A stretch of DNA of 64,000 nucleotides. Origin: Pontibacillus sp. HMF3514 (GTDB lineage Bacteria; Bacillota; Bacilli; Bacillales; BH030062). Position 1 is the first letter of the stretch, and each line of letters opens with the position of its first letter. The translations under genes were made by a program, and so were the position numbers. The DNA lies in contig NZ_CP047393.1 of the NCBI RefSeq assembly GCF_009858175.1, positions 3,782,001 through 3,846,000 of the forward strand, written 5' to 3'. Below the pieces are notes generated by a model, which worked only from the letters and a program-made list of their open reading frames with translations, was not told the DNA's origin and ran no database searches. Shown piece by piece: positions 16,361 through 58,047 of this stretch.

Positions 16361-17093
16361 TTCCGTTAAAGCCCCCTTATCTGGAAGACTTGGAATCGAG
16401 ATAAATATGAGAGGAGTCCGTTGCTTTTGTGAGAGTTAGGGGGTCAGTGAAACGTCGATACTCCTGTTGCCTCACACGACGTGGGGTAGGTCGACGTTGC
16501 CACACGATGTGGCGGTCTTAGTCGATCTTCCTTGTTTACTTTGAGCCTCCTCGTTCACTCCGTTCTCTGTGGGGTCTCATCTGCCCTTTCTACCACTGGA
16601 GTACGACGTTTCCTTCCCCCCTTGCTTGTATGGAGGTTAACGGACCCTAGTTGTGTGAGCTCTAACCCTTACGGACATCTGTTCCGTTATTTTGAACTTT
16701 AAAGGCATTTCGAGAGTCGTTACGGACATATGGTACCTTATTTGTGACAGATTGCTCTTTATTAAGGTGATTTGCAGCAATTAGCGGAATAAATGTCCGT
16801 AAGCTCTTTAGAAAAACCATTTTAAGGTGAAATAGCGGAACAAATGTCCGTAAGCATTACCTCCTCATATCGCTACGGTTCTGTTCATCACCATTCGGCT
16901 AAGGTGGGCTTGGGAACGGGTTGACTCCTCCGGAAATACGGGCGAGCGAGATCCCGCAAGAAGCGTAGCGTATGAGGAGGCTCGATCGTTCGTCCGGGGA
17001 AAGCAACCCGTTCCCAAGCCCACCCTCTCCACAATAGCAACGGAACCGCCTCTCTCACTAAAACAGTTATTCCAGATAACTGCCAGATTGTTG
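16361..17093. repeat. Composite palindromic repeat, copy 2 (type 2) with nested hairpin
   Basis: Same two-hairpin plan as copies 1, 3 and 4. The unit A stem here is AAACGTCG (16450-16457)/CGACGTTT (16604-16611) instead of AACGGCAA/TTGCCGTT; the unit B stem is GGGCTTGGGAACGGGTTG (16906-16923)/CAACCCGTTCCCAAGCCC (17004-17021). Between them are four copies, two per orientation, of TTACGGACAT(N)TGTTCCG-like words. An extra hairpin of ~70 bp (about 16,470-16,545) interrupts unit A relative to copy 4. Confidence 0.85.
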
Positions 17094-21467: not shown

Positions 21468-21796
21468 CTCCAGCGCCCAGCAACGAATGGACTTGGGCCC
21501 ACACGACGTGGGTCAGATCGGTGTTTTCACAGGATGTGACGACACCGATCTTCCTTATTCCTTTCTCCGTTCGATAAGTCAACATCAAATTGCTTCACAA
21601 TTTGTGTTTCCTTTACACATTTGATGACATAAAATTTTATCGAAGGAGTAATTCGACATAGTTAAAATTTCTAGGTTAAAGTACCACAGCAACTAAGCTT
21701 CTGTCTGCGCCTACCGGCTTGCCAATCAGCAAGTTTAGTTAATCTTACTACGGGCTCAGTCCAGTCCCTTCGTTGCTAAACGGGCTCTGGAGCTTT
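21468..21796. repeat. MITE-like element with long inverted ends
   Basis: Begins AGCTCCAGCGCCCAGCAACG and ends CGTTGCTAAACGGGCTCTGG plus AGCT. The outer ~40 bp on each side pair as an imperfect inverted repeat (AGCAACGAATGGACT / AGTCCCTTCGTTGCT inside it). It contains a nested hairpin (AGATCGGTGT/ACACCGATCT near 21,517-21,552) also found in composite repeat copy 2, and a ~110-bp segment (21,630-21,740) with an inverted copy at 55.8 kb. No coding capacity. Confidence 0.7.
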
Positions 21797-52612: not shown

Positions 52613-53404
52613 TTATGATTCTTGTATTCGGTTATGGTGCGTGTACACATTTAGTCGATGTTCTCGAATAAAACCGACTGTCGTGATCCCAAGGTCATCC
52701 GCTAAATCCAGCGCAAGTGTAGTGGGTGCAGATTTAGATAGAATAATCCCAACGCCAATCTTTGAAACTTTTAAAAGCACTTCAGAAGAAATACGTCCAG
52801 AGAATGCGATAACTTTATCACGTAAGGAAATTCGGTTCTTTAGGCAGTAGCCATAGATCTTATCCAGTGCATTATGGCGGCCGATGTCTGAATAGGAAAC
52901 CACGATTTCATCCGTAGTACAGAGCGCTGCATTATGCAATCCTCCTGTCATATGGAAGTTCGAGGAGGTCTCCTGCATTTTGCTCATCAAATTCATACAA
53001 GCTTGCACCGATAACGTTGTGTCTGTCCGGATCGTCTTGGCTGTTCTCACGTCATTCTGAAAATAGAACTGCCGGCTTTTCCCACAGCAGGATCCAATAA
53101 AACGCTTGGAGTGCCCTTCCTGATTAAGCTGCACCTGTTTGGTTAGTTCTACATAAGCAAAACCTTGGTCCTCATCTACCTGAAGAGACTTTACCTCATT
53201 TAAAAAAAGGATTAATCCCTCTGATGCCATAAAACCAATAACCAATTCCTCCAAATGTTCAGGAGTACAGACCATTGTGGCGAATTCCTCACCGTTCACC
53301 ATAATTGTGAGCGGATATTCTGAGGCTACTGTATCCTCGACCTCATCAAATGAATCTACTTCATATTTGTGTACATGTCGTTGTTCCATAATCTCTTTTT
53401 TCAT
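52613..53404 (-). CDS. fdhD: Formate dehydrogenase accessory sulfurtransferase FdhD
   Basis: Transfers sulfur to the molybdenum cofactor of formate dehydrogenase. 263 residues; the reactive cysteine pair is Cys106-Cys107 in GSCCGKS, and the conserved SDIGRHNALDK occurs near residue 171. Directly follows the formate dehydrogenase gene (15 bp), as expected for its client. Start at the ATG nine bases from AGAGG. Confidence 0.93.
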   Translation of the reverse strand: MKKEIMEQRHVHKYEVDSFDEVEDTVASEYPLTIMVNGEEFATMVCTPEHLEELVIGFMASEGLILFLNEVKSLQVDEDQGFAYVELTKQVQLNQEGHSKRFIGSCCGKSRQFYFQNDVRTAKTIRTDTTLSVQACMNLMSKMQETSSNFHMTGGLHNAALCTTDEIVVSYSDIGRHNALDKIYGYCLKNRISLRDKVIAFSGRISSEVLLKVSKIGVGIILSKSAPTTLALDLADDLGITTVGFIREHRLNVYTHHNRIQES

Positions 53405-53419
53405 AATCAAACGCCTCTT

Positions 53420-55771
53420 TTAAGTTGTTTCCATCTCCAGTTCTTCCACGCGCTTTTCTACGTACTTCGTATCCTTCTGGGCATGGAAGGTTTCAGCCTT
53501 CTCCACAATGACTGCGGTATTGTATTCAGGAATCCCAGCATATTTTTCATAAACGCCTTTTGGAATCAACACATTCCCTTCAGGCCAGTACACTAAAACA
53601 TTCTCGCTTCTGGTATTCGCGAATTTCGCATAACCGTTCAACTTCCCATATTGATTATAAACAACAATGGCTTCACCTTCGCGGATCTCCAATTCCTTTG
53701 CATCATCTTCATTTATCAGTACATCATAGCGACTTGCATTATTGAATGGATCTTTCTCATCATAGATCATCGAGTTAAATTGTTTTCCACGTCTTGTGGT
53801 GACATAGAAGCGTCCTTCGGTTTTACGGCGTTCCGGAATTTCAATCGGAAGCAAGTTCCCACGTCCATCTGGTGTCGGGCATTCCCCACCTTCACATAAC
53901 CAGGCGCCTCCCCATTGAAATACGTCACCTTGCTCTTTTAAATGCTGAATGCCATCATAATTTGGATTAGCTACTGCAATCTCATCTCTTATTTGTTGAG
54001 CATCCTCATATTCAATTAGGTGCTTCTCATCTGGCTTTACTCTCTTGGCAAGTTCCATATAAATCTCCCATTCAGGACGCGCTTCTTCGATTCGTGGCCC
54101 CTTTATTTCCGGAGAAAAATAAACCATACGCTCTGTTGATGTAGAGGTTCCCCCGCCCGGTTGTTCATAACGTGTCATAGCCGGCAAAACTAGTACCTCT
54201 TCTTTCGCATCAACTAAAGTGGAGGTATTCAAAATAATATCCTGATGCACACGTAACTCGACCTCTTCTAAACATTGCTTAATAAAGGCTGGGTCAGGCA
54301 TCGTTTCTAAAAAGTTTCCACCAGAAGTATAGAACATTTTCATTTTACGTTCGTGATCATCTGGTAAAATCGCATGCTCAATTGACTCACCAACGATATC
54401 TCCTTGCCATTTCGGGATATCAAAGCCCCAGACGTTTTCGACACGATCGATATTTTCTGGTGTGAAGCCTCCTCCTGGTAACACGAAAGGATCTGCCCCC
54501 ATTTCACCCGAGCCTTGTACACCAGAGTGTCCGCGAATTGGCATCACGCCACATTTTTCTCTTCCAATGAACCCTTTTAGCATAGCGAGGTTAGCTACTT
54601 GTGAAATGTTATCCGTTCCAAAACGGTGCTGCGTTAAGCCCATGGACCACACGAATACTCCACTTTTTGATTTAGCTAGAAGCATCGCCAATTCTTCTAT
54701 TCGTTCTCGTGATAGACCAGAAGATTGTTCAAGATCATCCCAGTTTTGATTCTCAACATGTTCCTTTAATTCAGCAAAACCATTCGTATGTTCATTGATA
54801 AAATCATGGTCAATAGCAGAACCCGGCTGTACTTCCTCCATCTCAAACCAATGCTTCATGATGCCATTCATAAAGGCAATATCTCCTCCGATATTGACCT
54901 GGTACACATCATCGGCAATTTTCGTACCAAAGAGAGCGCTATCCGGTATAGAAGGAATCCAATACTCGTCCATGGACGGCTCGTAATATGGATTGATCAC
55001 GATGATCTTTGTACCTTTACGCTTAGCTGCATACATATATTTTGTAGAAACAGGCTGGTTGTTTGCCGCAACAGACCCCCAGAATACAAGCACATCTGAC
55101 CCAATCCAATCCTGGTAATTACAGCTTGAAGCTCCAATTCCAAGTGAGCGACTCAATGCCGTTTTACTAGGTGAATGACAAATACGGGAAGCGTTATCAA
55201 TATTGTTCGTACCTAAGAAGCGTGCAACCTTCCCTGCAACATAATATGATTCGTTTGTAATACCACGAGCTGTTAAGAACATCGCAAGCTGCTTTGGATC
55301 AATGTTCTTCACTTTGGTAGCCATTTTATCCAACGCCTCGTCCCATGAGATGCGCTTAAACGTGCTCTCTCCTGGCTTACGTGATAATGGATAAGGGATT
55401 CTACCAAGTTTTCGGAGTTCAGAGCTGTCCATTTTTCTCAGCTCATCGATATCCTGATGTAATACCCCTTCTTTAATCGCTGGCATTGTGTTTAAGCGAA
55501 GTACGTTCAAACGTGTCGTACATAAGTGCGGACCTTTTAATGTCTGATCTTGAAGTCCACTTACCCCTAGCGCACATCCATCACAAACGCCTTTTGTTAG
55601 AATTCTTGTAGCATACGGAAGATTATCTTTGTTTTCCCACATAACCTTCATTGTGTCACGAATATGTTTTGGTTTGATCTTACCTAATCCGAACGGTACA
55701 GGACTAACCCAGTGCTTCGGATCTGGAGTTTTCTCTAATTTCATTGGACCTTCATGTTTCGTATTCCCCAT
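53420..55771 (-). CDS. Formate dehydrogenase-type molybdopterin oxidoreductase (FdhF2/YdeP-like)
   Basis: 783 residues. Catalytic metal ligand is Cys198 in SRICHSPSKTAL, the position of selenocysteine in E. coli FdhF. N-terminal cysteines Cys63-x2-Cys66 and Cys84 are visible, fewer than a full [4Fe-4S] motif, as in the YdeP subgroup. Molybdopterin-binding segments VFWGSVAANNQP and IRGHSGVQGSGEMGADP follow. Start set at the ATG with AGGAGGG. Coupled to fdhD; electron acceptor not evident. True substrate of YdeP-type enzymes is debated. Confidence 0.88.
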   Translation of the reverse strand: MGNTKHEGPMKLEKTPDPKHWVSPVPFGLGKIKPKHIRDTMKVMWENKDNLPYATRILTKGVCDGCALGVSGLQDQTLKGPHLCTTRLNVLRLNTMPAIKEGVLHQDIDELRKMDSSELRKLGRIPYPLSRKPGESTFKRISWDEALDKMATKVKNIDPKQLAMFLTARGITNESYYVAGKVARFLGTNNIDNASRICHSPSKTALSRSLGIGASSCNYQDWIGSDVLVFWGSVAANNQPVSTKYMYAAKRKGTKIIVINPYYEPSMDEYWIPSIPDSALFGTKIADDVYQVNIGGDIAFMNGIMKHWFEMEEVQPGSAIDHDFINEHTNGFAELKEHVENQNWDDLEQSSGLSRERIEELAMLLAKSKSGVFVWSMGLTQHRFGTDNISQVANLAMLKGFIGREKCGVMPIRGHSGVQGSGEMGADPFVLPGGGFTPENIDRVENVWGFDIPKWQGDIVGESIEHAILPDDHERKMKMFYTSGGNFLETMPDPAFIKQCLEEVELRVHQDIILNTSTLVDAKEEVLVLPAMTRYEQPGGGTSTSTERMVYFSPEIKGPRIEEARPEWEIYMELAKRVKPDEKHLIEYEDAQQIRDEIAVANPNYDGIQHLKEQGDVFQWGGAWLCEGGECPTPDGRGNLLPIEIPERRKTEGRFYVTTRRGKQFNSMIYDEKDPFNNASRYDVLINEDDAKELEIREGEAIVVYNQYGKLNGYAKFANTRSENVLVYWPEGNVLIPKGVYEKYAGIPEYNTAVIVEKAETFHAQKDTKYVEKRVEELEMETT

Positions 55772-55799
55772 GTGAAATTCCCTCCTGTTCTTTTCTAAA

Positions 55800-55925: not shown

Positions 55926-55965
55926 TGTAAAAAAAGAAAGCTTCCCTCTTGGCAAGCTTTTAATA

Positions 55966-56020
55966 AATAAAAAACCACCGAAACCCCGCTACACATATGT
56001 ATAACGAGGTTTACGGTGGT
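55966..56020 (-). terminator. Terminator / attenuator in the formate dehydrogenase leader
   Basis: ACCACCGTAAACCTCG/CGGGGTTTCGGTGGT stem and six T. It lies nine bases after an AGCGATCCTGT word. Confidence 0.8.
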
Positions 56021-56028
56021 AGTCTTTA

Positions 56029-56039
56029 ACAGGATCGCT
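56029..56039 (-). promoter_or_regulatory. AGCGATCCTGT word, site A (formate dehydrogenase leader)
   Basis: The 11-mer is shared exactly with two sites in the leader of the neighbouring transporter gene. Forms a small CAG-CGATC-CTG hairpin next to the terminator. Confidence 0.5.
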
Positions 56040-56063
56040 GCCAAGTGCCAACACACTTCTCTA

Positions 56064-56429
56064 TTATTTTTTCAGTTGAATGCTTTCTGATAGATCTCGA
56101 TCAAATACGAAGATCGACATTCCTAAATCGGCTTCAATATCAATATCGACGAAAAGATCTAAAAATTTAGCTCCTAACAAATCTTCCATCTCTTGTGGAT
56201 AATGGTTTTTATAAATATTTTTCACCATTTCCGTACGGGCGGCTCGTACCATTTGTTCTCCATCTTTATTGGAAGCTATAAACTTCTCTACTGGAGACAT
56301 ATTGCCTTCCATCTCACATATCGCCCAATTTTTGCAAAAAGTCGTTGTAATCTTTTGAGGGCCTTTTCCCATATGCTTTTTTCGAAAGGCACGTACCAAG
56401 TTACTAAATTCTGCCTCAAACTTATTCAT
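56064..56429 (-). CDS. DUF2294 protein
   Basis: 121 residues; FEAEFSNLVRAFRKKHMGKGPQK is the DUF2294 N-terminus. Function unknown; the gene lies between the transporter and the formate dehydrogenase in the same direction, so a role in this module is likely. Start at the ATG nine bases after AAGGGA. Confidence 0.8.
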   Translation of the reverse strand: MNKFEAEFSNLVRAFRKKHMGKGPQKITTTFCKNWAICEMEGNMSPVEKFIASNKDGEQMVRAARTEMVKNIYKNHYPQEMEDLLGAKFLDLFVDIDIEADLGMSIFVFDRDLSESIQLKK

Positions 56430-56477
56430 GATCATTCTTCCCTTTTTATGCTTAGTTTCAGGCGAGTATAACATGAT

Positions 56478-57749
56478 TTATTGGTTTAGCGTAGGTTGTG
56501 CATCTTGGGCTGGAGTACTATTCTTAAGCTTATTCATATCAACTCTTATTAAGAACGAGATCACAAGTGCTACTACAAACAAGCCAGCGAAAAAGATTAG
56601 ACTGTTCTCATAACTTCCAGTCGTATCCTTAATCCATGCAGCAAACAAAGGTCCAACTAAACCAGCTGCTGCCCATGCTGTTAGGATATACCCGTGAATA
56701 GCTCCTAGCTGTTTTGTCCCAAAGATATCCCCAATAAATGCGGGTATCGAAGCAAATCCGCCTCCATAACAAGTGTACACAATTGCTAATAAAATTTGAA
56801 ATATTATGACTGATGATACATTAGGCAATATAGCAAAAGCAACAATTTGCAGTACAAAGAACGATGTGTACGTATTGGGACGCCCAATATAATCAGATAG
56901 TGTTGCCCAGCCTATACGACCAAACCCATTAAATAGCCCCAGAACACCTACCAGAGCAGCAGCTTCAGCGGTACTCAACCCTACACTTTCCTCTGCTAGT
57001 GGTTTTGCAGCTGATAAGATGGCAATACCACATGTAACATTAATAAAGAGCATCAGCCACAGGTAGTAAAATCTTTTTGTTTTGACTGCTTCGTTTGCAG
57101 TAAGTTGAGCTAAATCAGCTTTAACTTTCTTTTCACCCTTCTCCACTTTTTCCTGAAAACCACTTGGCATCCAACCTTCAGGTGGCTTTTCTAAATATAA
57201 AGAAGAAATAAGCATGATAACAAAATAAGCAATACCTAAAATGTAAAACGTAGCAGCAATGCCCACGGACTTAATCAAAGAATCCATAATAGGACTACTA
57301 ATAGCGGCAGCAAATCCAAATCCCATAATCGCAAGCCCTGTTGCAAGTCCTCGACGGTCAGGGAACCATTTAACAAGCGTAGAAACCGGTGCAATATAAC
57401 CAACACCTAGACCGATTCCACCTAGCGCTCCGTAAAATATGTACAAGAGAGGTAAGGAACCAAAATTAACGGCTAGTCCCGATCCCGCCACTCCTAAACC
57501 AAATAGTGTAGCAGCAAGCAATCCAGACTTACGCGGACCATGTTTCTCTACAAAACTACCTAAAAATGCTGCAGCTAAGCCTAAAAACAAGATAGCCAGA
57601 CTAAAGGTTAGTTGTACTTGACTATTACTCCAACCAAACTCATTGACCAAAGGATTCGTAAAATTACTCCAAGCATATACAGACCCAATCGAAAGGTGAA
57701 TCCCTACCCCTGAAAGTGCGATGAGCCAACGATTTTTTGTTTTACTCAA
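56478..57749 (-). CDS. MFS transporter, oxalate/formate antiporter family
   Basis: 423 residues, twelve helices; N-terminal SIGSVYAWSNFTNPLV and GLGVGYIAPVSTLVKWFPDRRG are hallmarks of the OFA group. Import or exchange of formate/oxalate-like anions fits the adjacent formate dehydrogenase. TTG start with GGAG nine bases upstream. Its leader has two cre-like sites, two AGCGATCCTGT words and a terminator before the start codon. Confidence 0.87.
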   Translation of the reverse strand: MSKTKNRWLIALSGVGIHLSIGSVYAWSNFTNPLVNEFGWSNSQVQLTFSLAILFLGLAAAFLGSFVEKHGPRKSGLLAATLFGLGVAGSGLAVNFGSLPLLYIFYGALGGIGLGVGYIAPVSTLVKWFPDRRGLATGLAIMGFGFAAAISSPIMDSLIKSVGIAATFYILGIAYFVIMLISSLYLEKPPEGWMPSGFQEKVEKGEKKVKADLAQLTANEAVKTKRFYYLWLMLFINVTCGIAILSAAKPLAEESVGLSTAEAAALVGVLGLFNGFGRIGWATLSDYIGRPNTYTSFFVLQIVAFAILPNVSSVIIFQILLAIVYTCYGGGFASIPAFIGDIFGTKQLGAIHGYILTAWAAAGLVGPLFAAWIKDTTGSYENSLIFFAGLFVVALVISFLIRVDMNKLKNSTPAQDAQPTLNQ

Positions 57750-57773
57750 TGTTCTTCACTCCTTATTTTAAAT

Positions 57774-57822
57774 ATAAAAACCGTCATTTTCCCATAGGTA
57801 TGCCCAATAGGAAAATGACGGT
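57774..57822 (-). terminator. Leader terminator upstream of the OFA transporter
   Basis: ACCGTCATTTTCC/GGGAAAATGACGGT stem and T5, 25 bp before the start codon. No minus-strand gene lies upstream, so it must attenuate the transporter's own transcript. Confidence 0.8.
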
Positions 57823-57830
57823 AATTTAAC

Positions 57831-57841
57831 ACAGGATCGCT
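57831..57841 (-). promoter_or_regulatory. AGCGATCCTGT word, site B2
   Basis: Ends nine bases before the leader terminator, the same placement as site A. Confidence 0.5.
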
Positions 57842-57862
57842 AAGCTAAACCACATTTCATTT

Positions 57863-57876
57863 TTGTAGCGCTTTCA
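57863..57876 (-). promoter_or_regulatory. cre-like site 2 in the OFA transporter leader
   Basis: TGAAAGCGCTACAA, one mismatch to the cre consensus. Confidence 0.45.
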
Positions 57877-57899
57877 TTTATTTCTGAAATTAATAGGTA

Positions 57900-57910
57900 A
57901 CAGGATCGCT
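57900..57910 (-). promoter_or_regulatory. AGCGATCCTGT word, site B1
   Basis: Here flanked as AACAG-CGATC-CTGTT, a 5-bp stem with a CGATC loop. It lies 16 bp after cre-like site 1. Confidence 0.5.
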
Positions 57911-57926
57911 GTTCCTTATCAAATCC

Positions 57927-57940
57927 AGTAAGCGCTTTAA
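57927..57940 (-). promoter_or_regulatory. cre-like site 1 upstream of the OFA transporter
   Basis: TTAAAGCGCTTACT, one mismatch to the cre consensus. CcpA repression of formate uptake in good carbon supply is inferred. Confidence 0.45.
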
Positions 57941-58047
57941 TTTTTGGAATTTTCTTATTACATAATAGACCAATAGATGATTCGAAGTCAAGTTATTTAT
58001 CCATTTAATAACACCAATGGTTTTAGTTAGAAAAATATACATCATCA

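Follow-up and report, generated by a model that had tools for sequence, protein, structure and literature searches.

Why should one 11-base word stand three times beside a set of formate genes, twice just ahead of an intrinsic terminator? The question arises in a 64,000-nucleotide stretch of Pontibacillus sp. HMF3514 (contig NZ_CP047393.1), which we call the window. Within the window the word, AGCGATCCTGT, has three occurrences, all on the minus strand (56029-56039, 57831-57841 and 57900-57910), where 0.02 would be expected and none of 100 shuffles gave three or more; the whole 3.98-Mb genome holds four. When two mismatches were allowed, the window held 14 copies against 10.4 expected, and hence no excess. 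Word counts and shuffles thus bear out the three positions, and the uniqueness within the window, that had been claimed in a first-pass annotation. Its nine-base step from word to terminator also holds, in that eight bases follow the words at 57831 and 56029 and the terminator stem begins at the ninth. The transporter terminator, as was likewise pointed out, ends no gene, because the gene upstream of the transporter, of sspH type, runs divergently on the opposite strand. The proposal built on these observations was of a small riboswitch or an antiterminator-protein site; what follows supports a shared cis element of conserved hairpins beside terminators, and of the two options favours a protein over a ligand. 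The features concerned are these:

57962-57991, minus strand: likely promoter (TTGACT, 18 nt, TATTAT), judged by eye against the sigma-A consensus
57929-57940, minus strand: second cre-like box, TTAAAGCGCTTA, upstream of module 1, found by eye
57886-57926, minus strand: module 1, the upstream hairpin of the transporter leader, loop CGATC, word 57900-57910; RNAfold, and a covarying stem in 41 leaders
57863-57876, minus strand: cre-like (CcpA) box, TGAAAGCGCTACAA, between the two leader hairpins, assigned by sequence
57820-57853, minus strand: module 2, the terminator-proximal leader hairpin, loop CGATC, word 57831-57841; RNAfold and covariation
57776-57822, minus strand: intrinsic terminator before the transporter gene; sequence and RNAfold
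56478-57749, minus strand: MFS transporter of SfMCT/OFA type; domain models
56064-56435, minus strand: mpsC (PF10057, the former DUF2294), with an uncertain start codon; candidate for the trans-acting factor
56015-56054, minus strand: class B hairpin between mpsC and fdhF, loop CGATC, word 56029-56039; alignment A1
55969-56020, minus strand: intrinsic terminator between mpsC and fdhF; sequence and RNAfold
53420-55774, minus strand: fdhF, FdhF/YdeP-family oxidoreductase (TIGR01701); domain models
52613-53410, minus strand: fdhD; domain models

Each of the three words forms the loop of an RNA hairpin, and the hairpins share the core AGCGN(2-3)CCTGY. The word therefore does mark a real cis element, but the conserved unit is this core and not the exact 11-mer, which is ruled out in that role by the variation of its two middle letters among relatives. 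The word at 57900 belongs to the first member of a tandem pair, and RNAfold predicts both hairpins of the window leader, with the tiny CGATC loop that had been suggested, at -9.7 and -9.1 kcal/mol when folded alone (-26.8 kcal/mol for the terminator). Our tandem model, R2, matches the leader at 2.9e-13 over 57812-57928, and the class B model, R1, matches at 4e-16 over 56012-56055, the window itself being in the seed of R1. The gene behind the leader had been called an OFA transporter; it is indeed an MFS protein of SfMCT/OFA type, but it passes only the cut-off of the NCBIfam SfMCT (L-lactate MFS transporter) model, falls below those of the oxalate/formate models and so scores as the lactate type. 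Its nearest named transporter locus is that of Pontibacillus marinus (97%). A second terminator-like hairpin (AAAGCTT...AAGCTTT with a T-run) lies just downstream of the class B terminator, at about 55926-55960 on the minus strand. A sigma-54 promoter at the class B word was considered and dropped, the spacing being off by one when checked by eye.

Lack of conservation at orthologous loci had been named as a refutation; instead, the element is kept across the loci of named relatives, and in orthologous transporter leaders of other families it recurs with its letters changed. In a sample of 80 named loci scored for the strict core AGCGN(2-3)CCTG, 51 have a downstream FdhF of at least 60% identity, and 49 of these carry at least one core; in 38 of the 51 a pair of cores precedes the transporter and a third core precedes fdhF (mpsC lies in between in 34, but not in the other four). 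Among the 29 loci that lack such an FdhF, cores were found in a single one (L088), and that locus has mpsC. Elsewhere in the 80 loci the core occurs 22 times, a background of 0.016 per kb of strand. Across the order, the two-core pattern is present in 68 of 397 genomes against two for the reversed pattern, where 68 is an upper count that includes a 48-base tandem repeat (G150:C7) and single matches counted unread (such as G109, G054 and G215:C9). A sample of the phylum gave eight of 398 genomes against 12 for the reversed control, with two of the eight accepted (the window and G091) and the other six counted unread; since there is no phylum-wide excess, the element seems confined to this order. 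The search of bacilli with RNA models that had been proposed found the hairpins conserved beside the mpsC/fdhF and transporter terminators: R1 matches in 44 of 249 genomes at E below 1e-4, its best 30 matches all lying between mpsC and fdhF in sense orientation, and R2 matches at E<=0.1 in 49 of the 249, where chance probably accounts for the two weakest. Five weak model matches without the two-core hairpin pair (L191, L192, L202, L203 and L204) were set aside. At gathering score, no known Rfam family falls on the element in the window and none matches in 12 loci searched; one sub-threshold miRNA line in the L058 leader, mir-9424, the HtrA thermometer and the other Rfam lines all lie below their own gathering scores. 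Elsewhere in the window Rfam finds only two Bacillaceae-1 sRNAs (RF01690), at 16471-16537 and 21498-21560 on the minus strand and above gathering score. An open-access literature search listed no earlier report of this element, and the words 'formate' and 'fdh' are absent from the main text of Naville and Gautheret 2010 (PMC2965389). The RNA element beside the formate-gene terminators is thus real, conserved and undescribed in the literature that we searched.

Structurally, the alignment of 41 leaders gives module 1 a stem of roughly 14 pairs, interrupted by single-base bulges and capped by a CGNNC pentaloop; module 2 has an outer stem of six and an inner stem of five pairs, and the class B hairpin is similar to module 2. 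The loop is CGNNC in all 41 first hairpins and all 43 class B hairpins, and either CGNNC (19 of 41) or CGNNNC (22 of 41) in the second hairpins, with the letters CG..C invariant. Within the tandem leaders the two cores lie 60-75 nt apart (n=41). In these leaders 91.2% of cells are paired, against at most 55.5% when the partner strand is slid, and 14 pairs are changed on both sides (8.9 in shuffled alignments; two of 500 shuffles as high) with 65 doubly changed cells (17.0 shuffled; none of 500 as high). The class B alignment is 95.7% paired, and its three doubly changed pairs, equalled by 64 of 500 shuffles, tell us little because these hairpins are too conserved to covary strongly. Taken with its spread among relatives, this leaves us practically certain that the element is a conserved RNA.

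Module 2 and the class B hairpin stand in a near-constant register with a terminator. Counted from the core A, a stem ending in a T-run begins at 18-21 nt in 38 of 41 leaders and, among the intergenic copies, at 19-20 nt in 35 of 43; the 18-21 nt register is kept in 73 of the 84 copies overall; of the 11 misses, eight score one point below the cut in the same register, and L087 and both copies of L105 fail outright. A looser, fold-based terminator test is passed by 41 of 41 leaders and 42 of 43 intergenic copies, but as it sometimes took another hairpin we rely on the stricter counts. Folded alone, the proximal leader hairpin takes 2-7 nt of the terminator stem into its own pairing in 37 of 40 leaders, 24 of them with 3 nt, and the intergenic hairpin pairs 1-5 nt of it in 40 of 41 copies. 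This is the geometry of an antiterminator, though the overlap is small. In the window leader it is 2 nt, and when that leader is folded as a whole both module 2 and the terminator form in the predicted minimum-energy structure, so that in this model the two are not strictly exclusive. For these reasons we regard antitermination as probable and no firmer than that, and we consider that the hairpin alone is unlikely to block termination. A factor would be needed, which might hold the hairpin or act on RNA polymerase from it. In the BglG/LicT systems the RAT is one larger hairpin with internal loops that overlaps the base of a terminator and is stabilised by a protein. The overlap with the terminator base is shared by the hairpins described here, but size, internal loops and sequence set the RAT apart on that description. 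A leader peptide was considered and rejected: the second hairpin of L058 lies inside a short frame, but L057 reads ATG TAA at that place (by eye).

On balance, we read the hairpins as the antitermination on-switch of a formate regulon, operated by a trans-acting factor that is probably a protein. In the default state, transcription would end at the terminators that follow module 2 and the class B hairpin, short of the transporter gene and of fdhF respectively. The factor would recognise the YAG-[CGNNC]-CUG hairpin tips and keep the terminator from closing when formate, the signal suggested by the targets, is present. An unlinked mpsC and other formate dehydrogenase operons would be served by the same hairpin code, as would chemoreceptors in four genomes, and the leading candidate for the factor is the MpsC subfamily that the operon itself encodes.

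Hairpins are indeed found on several further transcription units. In L185 they precede a second transporter-fdhF pair that lacks mpsC, in L197 an mpsC operon whose formate dehydrogenase is longer and has a ferredoxin domain, and in L270 (in the genome of L105), as a tandem pair of its own, an unlinked mpsC 70% identical to that of the window. On the reverse strand of L186 and L193 they stand with a terminator ahead of two small genes, some 70 and 82 codons long, the second core of L193 having one changed letter. Four chemoreceptor units in four genomes of four families also carry them (R2 E-values 1.5e-6 for L188, 3.5e-5 for L189, 1.9e-4 for L190 and 0.06 for L194), and in the L190 unit an EAL gene and cheW come first. 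Each of the four receptors has sCache_3_3, HAMP and signalling domains. A gut-microbiome study assigned formate to one sCache_3_3 receptor domain (PMC12415202), and in PacF residues R142, T145 and T158 affect formate binding (PMC12501870); on sequence comparison, R106, T109 and T121 are invariant in the four receptors, at a spacing of +3/+15 against +3/+16 in PacF. Among the best 30 homologues of one of these receptors from 150 genomes, only three carry hairpins, and one that is 83% identical lacks them. We have good confidence that the targets form a formate regulon, with formate itself as the signal suggested by what they have in common. The first-pass annotation had offered formate, molybdenum cofactor or carbon status as the signal; the chemoreceptor leaders strengthen the formate link, but nothing that we found points to molybdenum cofactor. 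Two further sequences were seen in passing. Before a second transporter-fdhF pair (L121/L013) there is a single CGAAC hairpin with a long, different outer stem and no T-run, near the start codon. In L040 (G026), AGCGATCCTGTACAAAAGCGCTTAAGCC occurs twice, at 1416 and 1501, 85 nt apart in a repeated stretch, and is probably unrelated to the element.

Several other explanations can be set against antitermination by a protein. If the dyad GATAG-N5-CTGTC were a DNA operator bound by a transcription factor, the near-palindromic form of module 1 and its closeness to the likely promoter would follow naturally; we consider this very improbable, as U-G alternates with C-G at fixed pairs (U-G in 27 of 41 leaders at one module 1 pair), which breaks DNA symmetry and indicates RNA, the outer stems covary, and the class B copy, in the same orientation, is found next to a terminator 1.7 kb further downstream. 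Little more probable is a site for translation, processing or mRNA stability that stands near terminators by chance. It would accommodate L195 and L201, where a lone module 1 lies directly before mpsC with no terminator in sight (by eye) and a class B hairpin with terminator follows mpsC, an arrangement which also hints at possible action of module 1 from a distance; the core-terminator register described above speaks against it. More serious, though still unlikely, is a tandem-hairpin riboswitch whose loops, alone or docked, would bind formate or a related small molecule without a protein. Two similar hairpins in one leader, the invariant loop letters and the single metabolite shared by the targets would all suit it. 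Conservation is nevertheless confined to a very small terminal hairpin, with variable internal loops and linkers, a single hairpin suffices between mpsC and fdhF, the paired loops show no pattern of complementarity by eye, and no known Rfam riboswitch is matched. The guanidine-II (mini-ykkC) riboswitch has two small hairpins with CG in their loops, as here, but these are ACGR tetraloops that dock together, and it is among the families without an Rfam match at our loci. The smallness of the conserved hairpin and its presence on several transcription units favour a protein partner over direct ligand binding, without proving it, and we hold such a partner to be likely. Among proteins of known type, ANTAR antiterminators (EutV/eut, NasR/nasF, AmiR/amiE) offer a close precedent in layout, with two small conserved-loop hairpins, the second against an intrinsic terminator as in the eut leaders, on several operons. 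Their hexanucleotide loops have A at position 1 and G at position 4, however, and their linkers measure about 5-12 nt (PMC3369931), against CGNNC or CGNNNC loops and cores 60-75 nt apart here. In addition, an ANTAR protein search at E<=0.001 found no match in 45 of 47 hairpin genomes (the two weakest of the 49 R2 genomes being left out), the window's included, with one genome over the cut-off. Loop, linker and absent protein together refute ANTAR as a general explanation, and we give it next to no weight. LoaP, which acts on the dfn and mln leaders of Bacillus velezensis, is an antitermination protein that a small hairpin in the leader recruits upstream of an intrinsic terminator, but its hairpin has a UNCG-type tetraloop (PMC12691694), unlike the CGNNC and CGNNNC loops here, and its operons are different.

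If antitermination by a protein is accepted, the choice of partner lies between MpsC and another RNA-binding protein; we hold each to be a tentative possibility, with MpsC as the leading candidate. Among the 80 named loci, 44 carry this type of mpsC in cis, and every one of these has one hairpin or more; the other 36 divide into 30 without hairpins and six with them. These six would suit another protein, but all six genomes encode PF10057 genes elsewhere, in five of them a copy 70-76% identical to the window MpsC; in the genomes of L090, L091, L100 and L119 a 74-76% identical mpsC sits beside an fdhD-like frame (recognised by eye), and the genome of L121 also has a standard hairpin operon with mpsC (L271). 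It also counts against another protein that the fdhF operons with neither hairpins nor mpsC are just two, both of B. pumilus type (L122 and L123). A PF10057 gene is present in all 49 R2-positive genomes, against 176 of 249 overall. In a tree built from few columns and with long branches, 46 hairpin-associated MpsC rows, with one aberrant row, fall on one side of a 99/92 branch and 36 others on the other side. L246 has a branch length of 10, which probably reflects a wrong frame, and L256 was left out as truncated. The association is partly plain operon inheritance. The predicted MpsC structure shows no recognisable RNA-binding fold, which lends some weight to another protein: the model is confident (pLDDT 92.7), but it has no clear structural relative, its best structural Z of 7.5 is graded as background by the tool, Foldseek returned no match at E<=0.001, and a sequence search found no PDB relative at E<=10. 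Deletion of mpsC in Staphylococcus aureus gave no growth phenotype (PMC6689103), which points the same way, and in the text consulted the family has no tested function. Most speculative of all is the full proposal, which the genomic associations raise but which we consider rather unlikely as a whole, that this subfamily of MpsC, a small and widespread protein, is a new kind of RNA-binding antiterminator that reads pairs of YAG-[CGNNC]-CUG hairpins and, on formate or a linked signal, switches on formate uptake and oxidation, in some species chemotaxis, and its own gene.

If protein-mediated antitermination is confirmed, a large bacterial order would turn out to regulate one-carbon metabolism by a new RNA code, in which one RNA hairpin links the uptake of formate, its oxidation and, in some species, the search for it. 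MpsC/DUF2294 would also gain a testable function, and a two-hairpin antiterminator would be shown to be possible outside the ANTAR family.

The transporter leader may be under further control. Of the 41 leaders, 26 have a cre-like box (assigned by the cre consensus for CcpA, like the second box in the window) between their two hairpins, against 0.045 expected in shuffled spacers, and CcpA could act there as a roadblock. Carbon status, one of the signals suggested, may thus act separately from the hairpins. In 17 of the 41 named leaders, a sequence resembling GTTCAYAAATnTGTmACA lies just upstream of module 1, near the likely transcription start, and might be an operator, for a redox regulator or some other. 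The leader may be subject both to catabolite control and to a further regulator.
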